From NCBI GenBank assembly GCA_001899315.1, contig MOYA01000003.1, positions 37,357 to 86,330 of the forward strand: a stretch of DNA of 48,974 nt, in the 5' to 3' direction. Source of the stretch: Candidatus Obscuribacter phosphatis (GTDB lineage: Bacteria > Cyanobacteriota > Vampirovibrionia > Obscuribacterales > Obscuribacteraceae). The notes under the pieces are model-generated. The model worked only from the letters and a program-made list of their open reading frames with translations. It was not told the DNA's origin and ran no database searches. Below, in pieces: positions 18,190 to 27,215 of this stretch (position 1 is its first letter; each line of letters starts with the position of its first letter). The translations under genes were made by a program, and so were the position numbers.

Positions 18190-19095
18190 TTGGTTTGGGT
18201 TGGTTTAGATCGGATTGGAAGTTTGCCAAAGGACACATTAATCGGGACGGTCCTGGACGATCGATATGAAATCCTCGCCGAAGTGGGCAGAGGAGCCTTG
18301 GGCGTTGTCTATAAAGCCCGGCATTTGGTCATGGAAAAAACCGTGGCAGTCAAGATTCTTTTCGGCGAAGTAGACGTCGATAAAGATGAAACCAATTTCC
18401 TCAGGTTTCAAAGAGAAGCCCAGGCGGCCAGTTCGATGAGCCACCCCAACATAGTCACCGTCTATGACTTCGGGTTTTCAAAGCAAAAAACACCCTATCT
18501 GGTTATGGACTACATCGAAGGCGTCAACCTGAAAGAAGTCTTGAGCCGCCACCAACGTCTGCCGGTAGAAAGAGCCGTACAAATCTTTCTGCAAATGTGC
18601 AGCGCCCTAGAACACGCTCACAGTAAGGGCATTCTGCACCGCGATATCAAGCCGGAAAACGTTGTCCTGCTTCGCACCAGCTGGAATCCGGAGTTTGTCA
18701 AACTAGTGGATTTCGGCATTGCCAAATATGTTAACGAGCCCCGCAATAATTCTAAGAAACTGACCATGGACGGACAAGTGCTTGGCACCCCCGCCTATAT
18801 GAGCCCGGAACAAGTAATGGGCGACCGTCTCGACCCCCGTTCCGATGTTTATTGCATGGGAGTGTTGATGTACCATTCGGTGTCCGGACGCCTACCCATA
18901 CTGGGGACAACTTCAGCCGATACAATGAGCCGCCACATATCAGATAAGCCCAAAGAATTCCAAGAAATTTGTCCCAACATACCCATTCCTTTTAAGTTGG
19001 AAAGGACTATTTTCAAGGCCCTGAAAAAGCATCCGCAAGACCGTCACCAATCGATGAAAGAACTCTTTATTGAGTTGGAAAACTACAAAGACTGA
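18190..19095 (+). CDS. Serine/threonine protein kinase (PknB/STPK type)
   Basis: 301 aa holding a complete Hanks-type kinase domain and little else, with no membrane anchor or sensor domain. Seen: GRGALGVVYKAR (P-loop), Lys55 in AVKILF, Asp152 in HRDIKPEN, Asp174 in DFGIAKY, and GTPAYMSPEQ. It should therefore be catalytically active and cytoplasmic. No ATG lies near the domain start: the frame opens with TTG at 18190, or TTG at 18223 with GGAAG just upstream. The leader is a T/G-rich low-complexity stretch (18166-18220). The stop overlaps the ATG of the downstream esterase (TGATG), so the two are translationally coupled. Confidence 0.92.
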   Translation: MVWVGLDRIGSLPKDTLIGTVLDDRYEILAEVGRGALGVVYKARHLVMEKTVAVKILFGEVDVDKDETNFLRFQREAQAASSMSHPNIVTVYDFGFSKQKTPYLVMDYIEGVNLKEVLSRHQRLPVERAVQIFLQMCSALEHAHSKGILHRDIKPENVVLLRTSWNPEFVKLVDFGIAKYVNEPRNNSKKLTMDGQVLGTPAYMSPEQVMGDRLDPRSDVYCMGVLMYHSVSGRLPILGTTSADTMSRHISDKPKEFQEICPNIPIPFKLERTIFKALKKHPQDRHQSMKELFIELENYKD

Positions 19096-19997
19096 TGAAA
19101 ACTCGTACCATTCTCATTATCTTTACAGTCTGCTTGATTGCTGCAATTCCTTTTGTCACCAAAGGTCACGAAGATACAGGACCGGCTTCAGTGCGTATCG
19201 TCAAAGACATCAATTACGAAGGTGGTACAAACCCCGCCCAAAGTCTCGATCTTTACTTGCCGACCGAGACCAAACCAAACAAGCTTTTGCCCCTGATTGT
19301 CTTCATCCATGGCGGCGCCTGGATTCAAGGAGACAAGCAAGATGCCCCTGGAATTTTGATGGCCCAGCACGGCTTCGCCCTGGCCAGCATCAATTACAGA
19401 CTTTCCACCGAAGCAATATTCCCAGCCCAAATAGAAGACTGTCGCAAAGCTATCGCCTATCTGCGCAAAAACGGCGGCAAATGGGGCATAGACACCAACC
19501 GCATCGGTGTTTGGGGAATTTCAGCCGGCGGACATCTAGCTTCACTTCTGGGCACGACCAATAGCGCTGAAAACAAAGAATCTTCGGTGGAAGCAGTCCT
19601 CAACTGGTGCGGACTGAGCGATTTGATGACCGTTTCGGAACAGTCCGGTTCACGCACGAAAATAGACTGGGACGACAAAAACGGTCCGCTGGCTAAGTTT
19701 TTAGGCGGTCGCGAAACCGAGAAACCTGACTTAGCAAAAGCAGCCAGTCCAGTCAATTTCATCACCGCCGACGACCCACCCTTTCTAATCGTGCACGGCG
19801 ATATCGATGATGTCGTACCCTTTGCCCAGAGCCAAGAACTCTACGACAAACTAAAAGAGAAAGGCGTGCCCTGCCGCTTGATCAAAGTAAAAGGCGGCGG
19901 TCACATCTTTGGCAACGATGAAGAATTCAAGCATGCCATGCAGTTCTTTCAAAGCACCATAGTCAAAGGTCGCCGCGAATTTGTATTGGAAGACTGA
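19095..19997 (+). CDS. Secreted alpha/beta hydrolase (esterase/lipase, BD-FAE / HSL-like)
   Basis: 300 aa with a signal peptide (residues 1-24). Motifs: VFIHGGAWIQGDK for the oxyanion hole, nucleophile Ser143 in GISAGGHLAS, Asp238 in VHGDIDDVVPF and His270 in KGGGHIFG. This is the layout of BD-FAE and hormone-sensitive-lipase-like carboxylesterases, which remove short acyl groups, often from carbohydrate. It overlaps the kinase stop codon by one base. The pairing of a cytoplasmic kinase with an exported esterase has no obvious reason beyond shared expression. Confidence 0.9.
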   Translation: MKTRTILIIFTVCLIAAIPFVTKGHEDTGPASVRIVKDINYEGGTNPAQSLDLYLPTETKPNKLLPLIVFIHGGAWIQGDKQDAPGILMAQHGFALASINYRLSTEAIFPAQIEDCRKAIAYLRKNGGKWGIDTNRIGVWGISAGGHLASLLGTTNSAENKESSVEAVLNWCGLSDLMTVSEQSGSRTKIDWDDKNGPLAKFLGGRETEKPDLAKAASPVNFITADDPPFLIVHGDIDDVVPFAQSQELYDKLKEKGVPCRLIKVKGGGHIFGNDEEFKHAMQFFQSTIVKGRREFVLED

Positions 19998-20055: not shown

Positions 20056-21153
20056 TTAACTGGCGACTTTCTTTGCTGCCTCCTCTCTCAGCTTCCGCAC
20101 AGGCACAGTAAAGGAAGCAGGCTCTTTGCCAATCTTCAGGTCAAAGCGCAGCGCCGGTTCACCATTTACATTTTCTACAGTCATGCGTTCAGGGGTAATC
20201 GACATGGCCGTCTTCAGACCAAAAATTGACTTTTCCACCTGAGCCTTGATGCCGCTGATATTCTCAAGACCGACACTGTTGCCGCTTTTCAGACTAGCAG
20301 AAACGATATTATCCAGTTCCAGGCCACTAACCGTTACTCCCAAATGCTTCAGTTCGGTGTTCAACTGCAACTGTCTTTTCTGACCCGGCTTGCCACCATC
20401 AGTGGTTATATCTAATCTATCTTTGCCTTTTCTATCTATACTCAAACCGAGATTTTCACCACGGTCTTGATAGAGACGCAAAGCCCCGGTCAGATCTTTA
20501 AAATCACCATCTAAAACCTTATGCATAAAGTCATCGGGAGCAAAGACGTCTTTGCCCATGCGCACCGACTTGGTTATCTCTCTGCCCAAGACTCTAGCTG
20601 AGCCGGTCGAATCGACATAGCCGTTCTCACCAGGACGGATGGTCATCGACTGTGTGCGGCTATTGCGCACCCGCCCAAGCGGCCCCTGCACATCGGTGCT
20701 AAGACCATTGATGTTGTACAAACTCAAATTGACACCGTCGTTCTTTACATCAAAACTGACTTTCTCGTCGATGCGGGTGCGCAATGGTCTTTGCCTGCCG
20801 ACCATGACATTGGGCGCCGGGGCAGACAGTCCATGTTCCAAATCAATGGACACATGCCTGCTGCCATCAGGGTTACGACTGACCTTTATCGATTCAATAT
20901 TATCTAGCTTGGCTATGCCTCTGTTTAATTCGCCAATCGGATTGCTAAGTAATTCTTTTGGTAGTAAGTCGGTAGCTTTAGCCAAACCCGGCGGCAAATC
21001 AGACTGACTGCTCGGCTTCACCGGCGGAGTCTCGCGCAAATAAGTAAGGACAGACTCTGAAAATGGATGAGCGGCGCGATCTTGTACAGGCTCAATTTTG
21101 TCTTTGCTGTCGTTCTTAACGTTGTCTCTACCATCTTGAGGCATAAAGTTCAC
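20056..21153 (-). CDS. Hypothetical protein, probably lineage-restricted
   Basis: 365 aa, not recognised. The first about 70 residues are polar and Pro/Ser-rich (likely disordered). The rest is a regular beta-rich sequence with many Val/Leu-alternating strands, such as RHVSIDLEHGLSAP and SLKSGNSVGLENISGIKA. There is no signal peptide or membrane span and no catalytic motif. The repeated strand pattern could form a beta-sheet repeat or lipid-binding surface, but this is a guess. GTG start, with an in-frame ATG at 21144 as the alternative; neither has a clear Shine-Dalgarno. Confidence 0.6.
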   Translation of the reverse strand: MNFMPQDGRDNVKNDSKDKIEPVQDRAAHPFSESVLTYLRETPPVKPSSQSDLPPGLAKATDLLPKELLSNPIGELNRGIAKLDNIESIKVSRNPDGSRHVSIDLEHGLSAPAPNVMVGRQRPLRTRIDEKVSFDVKNDGVNLSLYNINGLSTDVQGPLGRVRNSRTQSMTIRPGENGYVDSTGSARVLGREITKSVRMGKDVFAPDDFMHKVLDGDFKDLTGALRLYQDRGENLGLSIDRKGKDRLDITTDGGKPGQKRQLQLNTELKHLGVTVSGLELDNIVSASLKSGNSVGLENISGIKAQVEKSIFGLKTAMSITPERMTVENVNGEPALRFDLKIGKEPASFTVPVRKLREEAAKKVAS

Positions 21154-22733: not shown

Positions 22734-22765
22734 AGCAAAATTCAATAAATAGCAAAATTCAATAA
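22734..22765. repeat. 15-bp direct repeat between convergent genes
   Basis: AGCAAAATTCAATAA occurs twice (22734-22748 and 22751-22765) with 2 bp between the copies. The second copy overlaps the stop codon of the retropepsin-like gene. It may be a replication-slippage product. Confidence 0.6.
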
Positions 22766-24009
22766 CGAGTAAATTTAATAAGACCCAAACTCTCATCAAT
22801 TTCAAAATGCCAATCGCCTAAAAAATCACGCCCAAGCAAACAAGTGCCGCTCTGCACAGCATCGGTGACAGCAACAGGCATAGCAGTTCTTTCAATGGGA
22901 CCAAGTTTCAAGTCGACCTTACTGACGCCCACCGGTGTACTGCCGACCACACCGCTCATCATGGCACCCGACAGTTGCTGCACCGGCAAACCAAGTTGCT
23001 TGGCCATGGTGGCGTTGATAAGTGAAACTTCCGCCCCAGTATCAAAAACGAAGTCGAGGGTACGGCCATTCACTTGCACATTTACTATAAAGGAACGGCC
23101 ACTTCTCTTGAAGGGCACTTGATAGACATAGCGACCGCTCTTATCTACAACCATACTGGCGGCTGTGACAGGCGCTTTAGAAGCGGCAGAAATGGCGGGC
23201 TGTTCTTTTCTAGCTAAGACAATAGCATTACCGGCGGTATCAATTCTATAGACATAACCTTCAAAGAACTGCTGCCCCAGTATGGCTGTATTGACACCGA
23301 CATCAGCCACCATAATTGGAAAATTACTCTTTTCAATGCTGCCCACTTTCAAGCGCCCTTTAAAGACCCAAGCTGGTAGAGCGTCGGCGCCGCCAACTCC
23401 ATACAAAAGCGAATTAGGTTTACCGGTTGGAGCGGACAGCCCGAGTCGCTTGAGAATCTTGAGAGGCAAGAAACAAAGTTCGGCACCGGTATCGACCAAA
23501 AGCGAGCAGGCATGACCATCCACACTGCCTTCTACATACATGCCGCTGCCCTGACGGCGAAAGGGCACCCAAGTTTCCCGAGGCAGACTGCCGGTGCCGG
23601 GCCAGACAATGGCCGCCTGGTTGGCAGCGGTCAGCCTGGAAACTTCACTCAAAGTGGTGCGGGCAAGCTTGCCTACTTCCTCTGAGGGGAAGCGGCTTGC
23701 CGTCAAGCGCAGGTAGGAAAGTGCTCTTTCCTTATCACCCAGCTCTCTATAGCAAATAGCAGTAAAATAATAGGCGTAGGCATTGCCGGGATCATGCTTT
23801 AGCGAGGCTTGAAAGCATTCAAGCGCCTTTTCGTACTTAGACTCTTTCAAGCACTTTATGCCCACCTCCAAGAGGGCATTGGTGCGGCTGCGAGGCAGAA
23901 CAATCTTCTGCGCCGGCGCCGACTCTTGCGCTTGCACAGCCTGGACGGGCATGGCCAGCCACAGTGCGCCAAGCAAGAGTAAAGACGACTTAGTTATGGC
24001 AACCACCAC
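22759..24009 (-). CDS. Retropepsin-like aspartic protease with TPR region and two protease domains
   Basis: 416 aa from a GTG at 24009. The frame is open to a TTG at 24120, but that upstream part reads a low-complexity Ala/Val run from the GGC-rich tail of the preceding gene in another frame, so it is probably not translated. From 24009 the protein has a signal peptide (VVVAITKSSLLLLGALWLA...). Next comes a TPR pair (about 45-115), then two clan AA retropepsin-like domains: Asp173 in VDTGAELCF and Asp323 in FDTGAEVSL. Retropepsins need two DTG copies for one active site, usually as a dimer; two copies in one chain could act as a pepsin-like monomer. It is probably exported and overlaps the preceding 99-aa gene by about 20 nt. 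Confidence 0.78.
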   Translation of the reverse strand: MVVAITKSSLLLLGALWLAMPVQAVQAQESAPAQKIVLPRSRTNALLEVGIKCLKESKYEKALECFQASLKHDPGNAYAYYFTAICYRELGDKERALSYLRLTASRFPSEEVGKLARTTLSEVSRLTAANQAAIVWPGTGSLPRETWVPFRRQGSGMYVEGSVDGHACSLLVDTGAELCFLPLKILKRLGLSAPTGKPNSLLYGVGGADALPAWVFKGRLKVGSIEKSNFPIMVADVGVNTAILGQQFFEGYVYRIDTAGNAIVLARKEQPAISAASKAPVTAASMVVDKSGRYVYQVPFKRSGRSFIVNVQVNGRTLDFVFDTGAEVSLINATMAKQLGLPVQQLSGAMMSGVVGSTPVGVSKVDLKLGPIERTAMPVAVTDAVQSGTCLLGRDFLGDWHFEIDESLGLIKFTRY

Positions 24010-24289
24010 TACCGCAACCGCCGCCGCCGCAGCCGCCTTCTGTCTGTCCTTCCACCGAGAAGGGCAAATCTTGTCCCGATTCTCCGCAGCCAAAGCCATC
24101 TTGTTCATAAGCTTGGGCAACCACTTCTAAACACTCATTCATGGCGCTGCCGTGAGATTGAATTTCATAAGTCAAATCTTCAATCTTGCCTTCAATACCG
24201 GTGAGTTTCTCGCAAATCATTTCAAGCGCCGAAGCAATGCGCTCCATTAGCTCGATGCTTGTGTTCTCACTGATGGTTTTCTCTTTCAT
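23990..24289 (-). CDS. 99-aa protein with Cys/Gly-rich C-terminal tail
   Basis: Small ATG frame with a nearby AAGG. Residues 1-60 look like a helix or coiled coil (MERIASALEMICEKLTGIEG). The end is GGCGGGGCGSGGCHN, with three cysteines in four residues of spacing or so and a final His-Asn. It lies upstream of, and overlaps, the retropepsin-like gene on the same strand. I do not recognise a family. The tail could bind metal, or could be a peptide core of the type found in thiazole-modified peptides; no modifying enzyme is nearby. It overlaps no other coding gene on the plus strand. Confidence 0.6.
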   Translation of the reverse strand: MKEKTISENTSIELMERIASALEMICEKLTGIEGKIEDLTYEIQSHGSAMNECLEVVAQAYEQDGFGCGESGQDLPFSVEGQTEGGCGGGGCGSGGCHN

Positions 24290-24380
24290 CGTTGTACCTT
24301 GTTATCTGACCACATACTATCTAATGACATGTCGCTATTGTGCCATAAAGTCTAAAATAGACAGCATAAAGGTAACAACG

Positions 24381-25211
24381 TTGAGAAAATTCTACGCATA
24401 TCTATTTTCATTCGCCTGCGCGGGTCTGCTCTATTTGGGTCTCGATAGCCCCGGCTTGACCGGCTTTGCCAAGCCGCCCGCCAAGCAGCAAAGCCAAGCC
24501 CAAATTGAAGAACTAACCAAACAGGCTGCTAAGGCCCAAAAAGCAAAAGATTATGCCCTGGCCGAAAAATGCTATCGGCAAGCTTTAGCCAAAGGCGATC
24601 TAAAGAGTGCCACTCGCCTGGGAGCCTTGCTGGAAGAAGGGCTGACCGGCACCTCGGACTTTCAAGCAGCTGAAAAATACTACCGCATGGCGGCGCCCAG
24701 CGATGCCGAGGCGGCCTGCCGATTATCCGGGCTGATTGGCTACAACAGCCGCAACCAACCAAGAAGCGGCCATAATGGCAGAGAAATTCCCCCAGAAGCC
24801 CTATATTGGTTGAAATCGTCAGCAGATCGAGGTTATCTTGAAGCCCAATGCCGGATGGGCACGATCTATTCGAACGATAAGAAAGATCGAGAACGTATGG
24901 CCATCGCCCTCAAATACAGACTAATGGCGGCAGCTCAAGGTGATTGTCGCAATGCCTATCGCGCCGGCAATTATCTTTTGTCCGGCATAGCCGGTCGCAA
25001 AGATCCGGTCAAGGCGGAGGCATTACTAAAAATGGCGGCCCGCACCAATCCCAATGCTTGCAAGCTTTTGGCCAATCTCTATGCCAATGGTGATCAAGGC
25101 GTTCAAGCCGATATGGCTAAGGCGAAAGAGTGGCGAGACAAGGGCATCGCTCTTTCAAAACAAATCAATGCCACCGACACAGATATCATCAAAAGCTTTA
25201 ACCGCGAATAA
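24381..25211 (+). CDS. Sel1-repeat protein with signal peptide
   Basis: 276 aa from TTG 24381, supported by AAAGG 8 nt upstream. The open frame extends back to 24186, but that part overlaps the 99-aa gene on the other strand. The first about 25 residues are a signal peptide (YLFSFACAGLLYLG). The rest is Sel1-like helical repeats, such as KAKDYALAEKCYRQALAKG, AACRLSGLIGY and ANLYANGDQGVQADMAKA. Sel1 proteins act as adaptors in the periplasm or cytoplasm. Its stop is 5 bp from the converging histidine kinase stop; a small hairpin AAAGAG/CTCTTT (25210-25226) lies between. Confidence 0.82.
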   Translation: MRKFYAYLFSFACAGLLYLGLDSPGLTGFAKPPAKQQSQAQIEELTKQAAKAQKAKDYALAEKCYRQALAKGDLKSATRLGALLEEGLTGTSDFQAAEKYYRMAAPSDAEAACRLSGLIGYNSRNQPRSGHNGREIPPEALYWLKSSADRGYLEAQCRMGTIYSNDKKDRERMAIALKYRLMAAAQGDCRNAYRAGNYLLSGIAGRKDPVKAEALLKMAARTNPNACKLLANLYANGDQGVQADMAKAKEWRDKGIALSKQINATDTDIIKSFNRE

Positions 25212-25216
25212 AGAGC

Positions 25217-26542
25217 TTAACTCTTTGCCACAGCCAACTCTACAGTAAAAGTGGCACCGGCGCCTGGCACCGAAGTGAGGCTAATATTGCCGCCGTGACG
25301 CTCCACCGTTGCCTTGACGATACTAAGACCGAGACCGCAACCGCCCAAATTGCGAGAACGCGAACTATCAACCCGATAAAACCGTTCAAAGACGCGCGCC
25401 TGACTCTCGACTGCAATACCGGGACCATCGTCGGCAACAATCAGCTTAACCACAGAACGCCCCTCATCATAGGCAATCTTTAATGTGACATGCCCAGCCG
25501 GTCGCGAATAATTGACTGCATTGGAAAGCAAATTGAGCAACATCCCTTGCAGAGCATCGAGATTGCCGCGCACTTTCAGAGCCAGATACTCCACTTCACA
25601 CTCTACGTTAAAGCTGATACCGCGACTAAGAGCCAACTGCCTAGTGGCATCACAAATCGAATCAATCACCTGACTGATACTGAGCTCTTCTTCTAGATAA
25701 GTATACTGAGGCGATTCCAATCGACTGAGTACAATCAGGCTCTGACCAAGATTTTTCATGCGATTGGTGGAGCGCTCAATAATCTTGAGCAAGCGCGAGA
25801 TCTCGGCAATTTGCAGACTTTGTTGCTCCGTCACTTTCTTATCAGCAGAAGACTCTTCCAACTCAGCCGAGATGGTCTGCAAGCTTGCTTCAATAACCGA
25901 TACCGGTGTATTAATCTCATGAGCTGCGTCCATGACAAACTGCCGCATCAAGCTCATAGCCGCTTCCACCGGCTTGACAGCATTGCCGGCAAACCACGAA
26001 CCGCACATGGCTACAGATAGAGCCAGAAAGGGCGTAAGAGCCAACATGGTCAGCACTATCTGCTTGAGGGCCTCGTCCCGCTGTTTGACTGAGACCTGCA
26101 CTTGTAGGTAGCCAATTGACTTATTGCCTTCATAAAGATCGGTATAGAAAGAGCGCAAAAGCAAAGGCGCAGACTTGGCATCAGTGCCGGACAAAGTCAT
26201 TTTTTCTTGCACATTGCCAAAAACCAGACGCTTCACTCCGGCAGGACCAAACTCTTCAAGCAAGTTCTTCTCTTTATCAAAAACTTGAATGGTAGACAAA
26301 AGCTGGTCATGCCTGAGAGCCACCCGCCTGGACCAGTTCACCAGGGACGGTTTGCCGGCGCTAATCTCTACAGCCGGCAAGGCACCATTGGCCACATCGT
26401 GCAGCTCTTCATCTAAAGAGGCATCAAGTTTATTGGCGAACATAAAGATGGCGACACTGCCACCTAGAAAATATAAGGCAACAAAGAGCAAAACGAACTG
26501 CGCCGTTAGTCTTTTGCGCAGCTTTAGTTCGGTATTAGGCAT
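25217..26542 (-). CDS. Sensor histidine kinase of a two-component pair
   Basis: 441 aa from ATG 26542; the ATG overlaps the stop of the response regulator (ATGCCTAA), so the pair is translationally coupled. Two membrane segments (about 13-35 and 165-185) flank an exported sensor region of about 130 residues. The cytoplasmic part has an H-box with His208 in DAAHEINTPVS (unusual next to the common SHELRTPL), an N-box LLNLLSNAVNYS, and G-boxes DDGPGIAV and GGCGLGLSIVK. It is a membrane sensor for an unknown signal. The pair follows the SulP gene on the same strand and may be co-transcribed with it. Confidence 0.93.
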   Translation of the reverse strand: MPNTELKLRKRLTAQFVLLFVALYFLGGSVAIFMFANKLDASLDEELHDVANGALPAVEISAGKPSLVNWSRRVALRHDQLLSTIQVFDKEKNLLEEFGPAGVKRLVFGNVQEKMTLSGTDAKSAPLLLRSFYTDLYEGNKSIGYLQVQVSVKQRDEALKQIVLTMLALTPFLALSVAMCGSWFAGNAVKPVEAAMSLMRQFVMDAAHEINTPVSVIEASLQTISAELEESSADKKVTEQQSLQIAEISRLLKIIERSTNRMKNLGQSLIVLSRLESPQYTYLEEELSISQVIDSICDATRQLALSRGISFNVECEVEYLALKVRGNLDALQGMLLNLLSNAVNYSRPAGHVTLKIAYDEGRSVVKLIVADDGPGIAVESQARVFERFYRVDSSRSRNLGGCGLGLSIVKATVERHGGNISLTSVPGAGATFTVELAVAKS

Positions 26543-27215
26543 TATCTGGACCAAGCTTATAGCCCACACCATATACAGTGGCGATAATCGAGCTCATGCC
26601 TTCGCTATCAAGCTTTTTGCGCAGACGAGTTACATGACCACGCACTGTATCCAAAAGAGCATCAGTATCCGATTCCCAGACAGAGGCCAATAACTCCTCG
26701 GCTGAAAAAACCTGATTGGGATGACGCACTAAAAACTCTAAAAGTCTAAACTCTTTAGGCAAAAGATGCACTTCCTCGTCACCTTTAAGAACCCGGAATT
26801 CATGCGGATCTATAGTCAAATCTCTAAACTTCAAGACATCAGAAACCGGCGAATGATTGCGGCGCAAAACAGCTCTCACTCTGGCTGCCAGTTCTTTCAG
26901 CTGGAAAGGCTTGGTGAGATAGTCGTCAGCGCCGGCATCAAGACCTACTTCTTTGTCATCGACATGAGAGCGGGCCGTGATCATAATCACCCCTGCCGAG
27001 CCGCCGCCTTTGCGATACTTCTTAAGAATCTCCAGACCATCCATGCTGGGCAACATCAAATCGAGCAATACCACGTCATACTTGCTGGTTTCCATCTTGA
27101 TTAGAGCATCGATACCGTCCGCTGCAATCTCCACCAAATGATGGTCTTTAACCAGCCAACCCTTTACAAGGTCAGCGAGGTCAACTTCGTCTTCGACTAT
27201 GAGTATCTTTGCCAT
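26535..27215 (-). CDS. Response regulator, OmpR/PhoB family
   Basis: 226 aa, the usual length. Receiver domain with phospho-acceptor Asp52 in LLDLMLPSMDG and Lys in YLTKPFQLKEL, then a winged-helix DNA-binding domain (about 130-222) with LLPKEFRLLEFLVRHPNQV and TVYGVGYKLGP. It should control transcription from sites it shares with its partner kinase. ATG start. A possible -10 TAGAAT lies in the 95 bp between it and the SulP gene, so it may have its own promoter as well as read-through. Confidence 0.95.
   Translation of the reverse strand: MAKILIVEDEVDLADLVKGWLVKDHHLVEIAADGIDALIKMETSKYDVVLLDLMLPSMDGLEILKKYRKGGGSAGVIMITARSHVDDKEVGLDAGADDYLTKPFQLKELAARVRAVLRRNHSPVSDVLKFRDLTIDPHEFRVLKGDEEVHLLPKEFRLLEFLVRHPNQVFSAEELLASVWESDTDALLDTVRGHVTRLRKKLDSEGMSSIIATVYGVGYKLGPDNA

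Follow-up and report, generated by a model that had tools for sequence, protein, structure and literature searches.

In Candidatus Obscuribacter phosphatis, a small gene was found directly upstream of, and overlapping with, a gene for a putative aspartic protease, and the same pairing recurs in related genomes. Our leading interpretation, which is offered tentatively, is that the small protein forms a coiled-coil oligomer in the cytoplasm, has a tail that binds thiols or metal, and is coupled to the protease as a partner or regulator at the stage of its production or export. The window analysed is the whole stretch of 48,974 nucleotides taken from contig MOYA01000003.1, and the features of interest within it are as follows.

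18190 to 19095, plus strand: Ser/Thr protein kinase, a conserved neighbour (neighbour search and locus comparison).
19095 to 19997, plus strand: BD-FAE-type esterase, a convergent and conserved neighbour of the protease group (neighbour search and locus comparison).
22759 to 24009, minus strand: putative TPR and two-lobe DTGA aspartic protease with an N-terminal hydrophobic export signal read by eye (Pfam, TIGR02281, alignment, model, folds and start comparison).
23990 to 24009, minus strand: overlap of the small gene and the protease gene, 20 nt, or 17 nt with GTG 24006 (start comparison).
23990 to 24289, minus strand: small protein of 99 aa, with a predicted coiled-coil helix (aa 2-63, model) and a disordered Cys/Gly tail (aa 85-99) (ORF, homologues, coding selection, model and heptads).
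24186 to 25211, plus strand: divergent Sel1-repeat ORF, whose listed TTG start at 24186 falls within the small gene in antisense orientation (ORF list, neighbour search and locus comparison).
25217 to 26572, minus strand: histidine kinase, the upstream neighbour, with relatives in several homologous loci (neighbour search and locus comparison).
26535 to 27215, minus strand: response regulator (neighbour search).

The 99-aa frame carries the Cys/Gly ending that was originally predicted (GGCGGGGCGSGGCHN). Judging from the sequence comparisons, it is a real, protein-coding gene; it was counted as more than a chance frame because codon changes are mostly synonymous and because it adjoins the protease in all seven homologues. 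Compared with L003, the closest homologue, 23 codons differ, of which 19 are synonymous and 4 non-synonymous. The dN/dS, calculated as the quotient of the printed values, was 0.04 with NG86 or 0.10 with YN00. Six of the synonymous changes fall in codons 81-93, beside and within the Gly/Cys tail, and leave the tail unaltered. At this level of comparison, purifying selection acts on the small gene as a protein. A scan just upstream of the small gene on its own strand gave no promoter-like site. By eye, AAGG/GGAG-like sites precede several of the small-gene starts among the homologues. No export signal was seen by eye in the small protein, which would be cytoplasmic.

A profile built from the seven homologues, which divergent members may escape, gave a strong match in 7 of the 53 genomes of the order, its own included, with one copy per genome. 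The genomes searched were metagenome assemblies. The original prediction had hinged on homologues in related genomes, and these do exist. When 382 genomes of the class were searched, the same seven were returned together with nine weak matches (E 3e-4 to 0.01), and among 386 genomes of the phylum the organism's own genome was the only match at E 1e-4. Five of the weak matches (L065-L069) were inspected and appeared unrelated by eye, and none has a double-DTG neighbour; we take them to be ORF6N-like, methyltransferase-like, YtxH-like and histidine kinase proteins. A first-pass match, L009 in genome G094 (E 0.005), was dropped because it sits in a 192-aa frame, presumably isochorismatase-like. 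The small protein had no match by sequence in Pfam, NCBIfam, PHROGs or the PDB sequences, with the Pfam and NCBIfam hits far below cut-off. The family appears to be undescribed and, within the searched genomes, confined to part of one bacterial family. In 7/7 homologues the small gene immediately precedes the protease gene in the same orientation, and the protease is always a TPR and double-DTGA aspartic protease. A search for homologues with the same tail beside such proteases had been suggested; the adjacency held, and the tail itself varies. The profile found no second copy near protease paralogues, nor did ORFs read by eye in six stretches upstream of the paralogues in the organism's own genome include one with a coiled coil and a Cys tail.

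By sequence, the conserved part of the small protein is a 3-4 heptad coiled coil. The invariant columns of the seven aligned proteins lie mostly within ERIAxAxExxxxKLxxxExKxxxL. Identity to the window protein is 32-56% for five relatives and 96% for the sixth (L003). The a/d positions 15, 18, 22, 25, 29, 32, 36, 39 and 43 read MILILIILI in the window protein, with 3-4 spacing, and its best-heptad score was equalled by 1 of 5000 shuffles. AlphaFold gave a single helix at residues 2-63, with a block of pLDDT 92-99 at residues 11-60, and a disordered tail mostly below 50. The small protein thus has an unbroken series of heptads with hydrophobic a/d positions along one long helix, as a coiled coil should, and it may oligomerise through them.

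The tail is identical in the window and L003 (EGGCGGGGCGSGGCHN) and reads EGGCGSGGCGSGGCGGSGSN in L004, EGCCDSEECDSPECNAQ and on in L005, MGCGSGCGSGCGSS and on in L006, and EGCGDPQCDECEGDHD in L008. L007 ends in EECDN; most of its tail is lost and one Cys is kept at the end, with the gene retained. Homologues replace the Gly-rich tail by CCDSEECDSPEC, CGDPQCDEC or almost nothing, and richness in Gly is missing from L005, L007 and L008. The Cys spacings are 4,4 in the window, L003, L004 and L005, 4,2 in L008 and 3,3 in L006, which gives C-x4-C-x4-C in four of the seven tails and a Cys triple with equal or nearly equal spacing in six. The nominal chance of the Cys count after the helix core was 4e-4 to 0.018 per sequence for six sequences, assuming a background Cys frequency of 1.2% and with the count made after the tails had been seen. 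Among proteins with 32-56% identity to the window protein (five relatives), the recurrence of Cys in the homologous tails exceeds chance. A metal-binding partner, one of the options in the original prediction, is a candidate that fits the recurring triple; the tail may engage in metal or thiol chemistry. The tail was also tried as a genome-wide signature, but the raw DNA pattern C-G-x-G-G-C, with 6 genome matches (two of them in the small gene), hardly differed in frequency from the reversed control pattern, with 5, and was dropped. Long Cys/Gly tails do recur in unrelated proteins. One case in the same genome is the TIGR04222 protein at L064 (around 1501), which shares such a tail with the small protein but is a membrane protein with an unrelated body.

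The ten neighbouring genes include the kinase, the esterase, a DUF4870 protein, a sugar transporter and the Sel1 protein, and the remaining five are the two-component pair, a sulfate permease and two genes without a match. The kinase and esterase genes (18190-19997) overlap by one base and are conserved convergent neighbours of the protease group. Between this pair and the protease, the window has the sugar transporter and a 365-aa ORF (20056-21153) with no Pfam match at E 0.001. The true start of the Sel1-repeat ORF is probably farther in, since the listed TTG falls inside the small gene.

The small gene belongs to one syntenic protease subgroup of 15 loci (L029-L043), seven with it and eight without. 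An esterase relative lies within the fetched stretch at 12 of these 15 loci and at 0 of the 15 loci L044-L058. At the window locus the esterase is farther off, behind the transporter and the 365-aa gene, and it is absent from the fetched stretch of L029 and from that of L023, a longer piece of that contig. The stretch fetched for L042, in which no esterase relative was found, is short (2803 bases). Within one genus (L035-L037), one genome carries the small gene, its tail mostly lost, between the Sel1 gene and the protease, and in two genomes the Sel1 gene directly precedes the protease and the small gene is absent. A protease tree was built with 27 of the 30 fetched loci. The other three (L052, L054 and L055) were excluded: in two, a second protease copy made the choice of frame ambiguous, and in the third no two-motif frame was present. 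Carriage of the small gene required 3 changes on this tree, a number as low in 2 of 500 shuffles, and the starred branches force at least 2. The key forks had 85-86% bootstrap support, and L034, a carrier row, is on a long branch with unsure placement. The pattern is compatible with one old gain and two losses of the small gene, which it does not prove.

Another possible explanation is that the two genes sit side by side simply because they were inherited together. The small protein would then serve a different purpose, perhaps alongside the histidine kinase, and share just a transcript with the protease. As this explanation would have it, conservation in some of the loci extends to the kinase, the esterase and the histidine kinase. 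However, the protease alone is adjacent in 7/7, and the histidine-kinase relatives are near six loci (the window, L029/L023, L024, L025, L028/L034 and L040), one of which, L040, lacks the small gene. We consider mere co-inheritance unlikely, at about one chance in a handful.

The large gene encodes a putative protease of the TIGR02281 / Asp_protease_2 type (clan AA), based on its DTGA motif and a score above the curated cut-off (TIGR02281 in NCBIfam, 75.5 bits versus 57.95). Pfam found TPR repeats in the frame and a match to PF13650 (1.3e-28) in two stretches. As the original prediction had it, there are two DTG motifs in one chain. Both are DTGA, at D173 and D323 in the 416-aa form from 24009, and both are invariant in 7/7 homologues, as are P, E, T and W in the segment that precedes the first lobe. 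The predicted signal peptide was likewise read by eye (ITKSSLLLLGALWLAMPVQA), and the protease seems to be exported. It models as a single-chain, bilobed, pepsin-like aspartic protease, with a mean pLDDT of 78.8. The best fold match was 9iy9, a putative endopeptidase of Bacteroides fragilis (Foldseek E 1.1e-13; VIA-align Z 20.2, 291 aligned, rmsd 5.1), although the two share 15% identity; pepsin-like chains and tethered HIV-protease chains followed. At least one match to the protease at 1e-40 was present in 49 of the 53 genomes of the order, and no relative was found on viral contigs. A literature search found nothing relevant on Obscuribacter aspartic proteases or single-chain TPR retropepsin-like proteases. 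The window protease shares its DTGA active site with RloA, also of the TIGR02281 / Asp_protease_2 type. RloA enzymes carry signal peptides, and the exported retropepsin-like RloA2 of P. aeruginosa is predicted to share an operon with the two-component genes CreBC (PMC12239564). A histidine kinase and a response regulator lie close by at the window locus too, a likeness of neighbourhood only. RloA, in contrast, is a dimer of single domains, whereas the window protease has two lobes in one chain after TPR repeats, and the term "small protein" has 0 occurrences in that paper (PMC12239564).

A helical small protein that is coupled to a pepsin-like bilobed protease and encoded first could be a cytosolic inhibitor, its long amphipathic helix filling the active-site cleft so that the enzyme stays silent until export, in a way that may resemble IA3. 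Yeast IA3 adopts a helix when bound in saccharopepsin. It is described as a disordered protein that inhibits its enzyme by blocking the cleft (PMC3072359). The conserved face of the small protein is a regular 3-4 heptad core, however, which suits self-association, and eight of the 15 syntenic orthologues, along with the paralogues as judged by profile, have no such gene beside them. An inhibitor of this kind is therefore improbable.

The listed protease frame (22759-24120, minus strand) is 453 aa long. It was predicted to be mis-started, and the comparison with L003 supports this. In L003 an in-frame stop interrupts the protease frame 65 nt ahead of the small-gene end, and nothing there corresponds to the window's earlier starts in this frame (TTG at -131, ATG at -119 and -110, and TTG at -104, counted from the small-gene end). 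Because of this stop, the listed protease starts of L003 are confined to GTG at -32, -20 and -17 and later codons. The protease start is likely GTG 24009 (or 24006), and the start at 24120 is not conserved between the two loci. The same-strand overlap, predicted at about 20 nt, is then 20 or 17 nt. Depending on the start chosen, the junction among relatives varies between overlaps of up to 26-29 nt and gaps of up to 11 nt: -20/-17 in the window and L003, +4 or -29 in L004, +11 in L005, +9 in L006, -11 or +4 in L007 and -26 in L008. By eye, the window protease start has no AAGG/GGAG-like site. Translational coupling of the two genes is probable.

Polycysteine short ORFs can act as attenuators. 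The small gene might accordingly be a regulatory upstream ORF, in which translation of the Cys/Gly tail controls the overlapping protease start in a cysteine-responsive manner and the peptide itself is secondary. Its Cys codons are near the junction, and the overlaps or gaps are short in 7/7. Against this, conservation is strongest in the helix, well away from the junction, and purifying selection acts on the protein. Moreover, most tail Cys are lost in L007, and the genes are 11 nt and 9 nt apart in L005 and L006. Attenuation is quite doubtful on these grounds.

Finally, the Gly/Cys-rich C-terminus resembles those of heterocyclised (YcaO) precursors, and a thiazole-like precursor with a processing protease had been proposed. 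Such precursors differ from the small protein, which has a coiled coil before its tail and no YcaO gene in its genome. Searches of this genome (95% complete) gave 0 matches each for YcaO, SPASM and LanC-like proteins, with positive controls in 5, 10 and 1 of 14 genomes, respectively; the SPASM and LanC searches cover part of the RiPP classes and, of the radical SAM proteins, those with SPASM. The lack of a nearby YcaO-type enzyme was correctly noted at the outset, and the ten neighbours hold no RiPP maturation or peptide-export gene. RiPP precursors usually have a conserved N-terminal part and a variable Cys-rich C-terminus, and because the small-protein alignment has this layout, a leader and Cys/Gly core matured by the protease was kept in consideration, but it is very improbable given the absent maturation genes, the coiled-coil nature of the conserved part, the largely retained Cys spacing and the replacement of the Gly-rich tail in homologues. 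Overall, the original interpretation is partly supported.

The partner or regulator reading is favoured by purifying selection, the 7/7 adjacency, the heptads, the Cys recurrence and the gene overlap, and by a tree that is compatible with an old origin of the small gene. In such a scheme, the helical part would assemble into a coiled-coil oligomer in the cytoplasm, which would gather several flexible tails, each with about three regularly spaced Cys, into a thiol or metal-binding cluster. Translational coupling would yield the small protein in step with the downstream TPR and bilobed protease, on which it may act before the cell envelope is reached, for example as a metal- or redox-responsive holdase or regulator. 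Interaction of the two proteins is inferred, as is this biochemical role. Several points count against the partner reading. L007 keeps the gene with most of the tail lost, and the small protein and protease are probably in different compartments. Also, eight of the 15 syntenic loci hold the protease without the small gene and, therefore, the protease does not strictly need it. A more elaborate version, in which the cytosolic Cys-tail oligomer senses metal or thiol state and licenses or restrains the exported protease through coupled synthesis and direct binding, much as a protease pro-region supplied in trans, is a long shot.

These findings add an uncatalogued small-protein family with a fixed protease partner, the protease itself being of a known kind, and correct the protease start from 24120. 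If the small protein controls the protease, it would offer an entry point to the restraint of bilobed aspartic proteases in bacteria.
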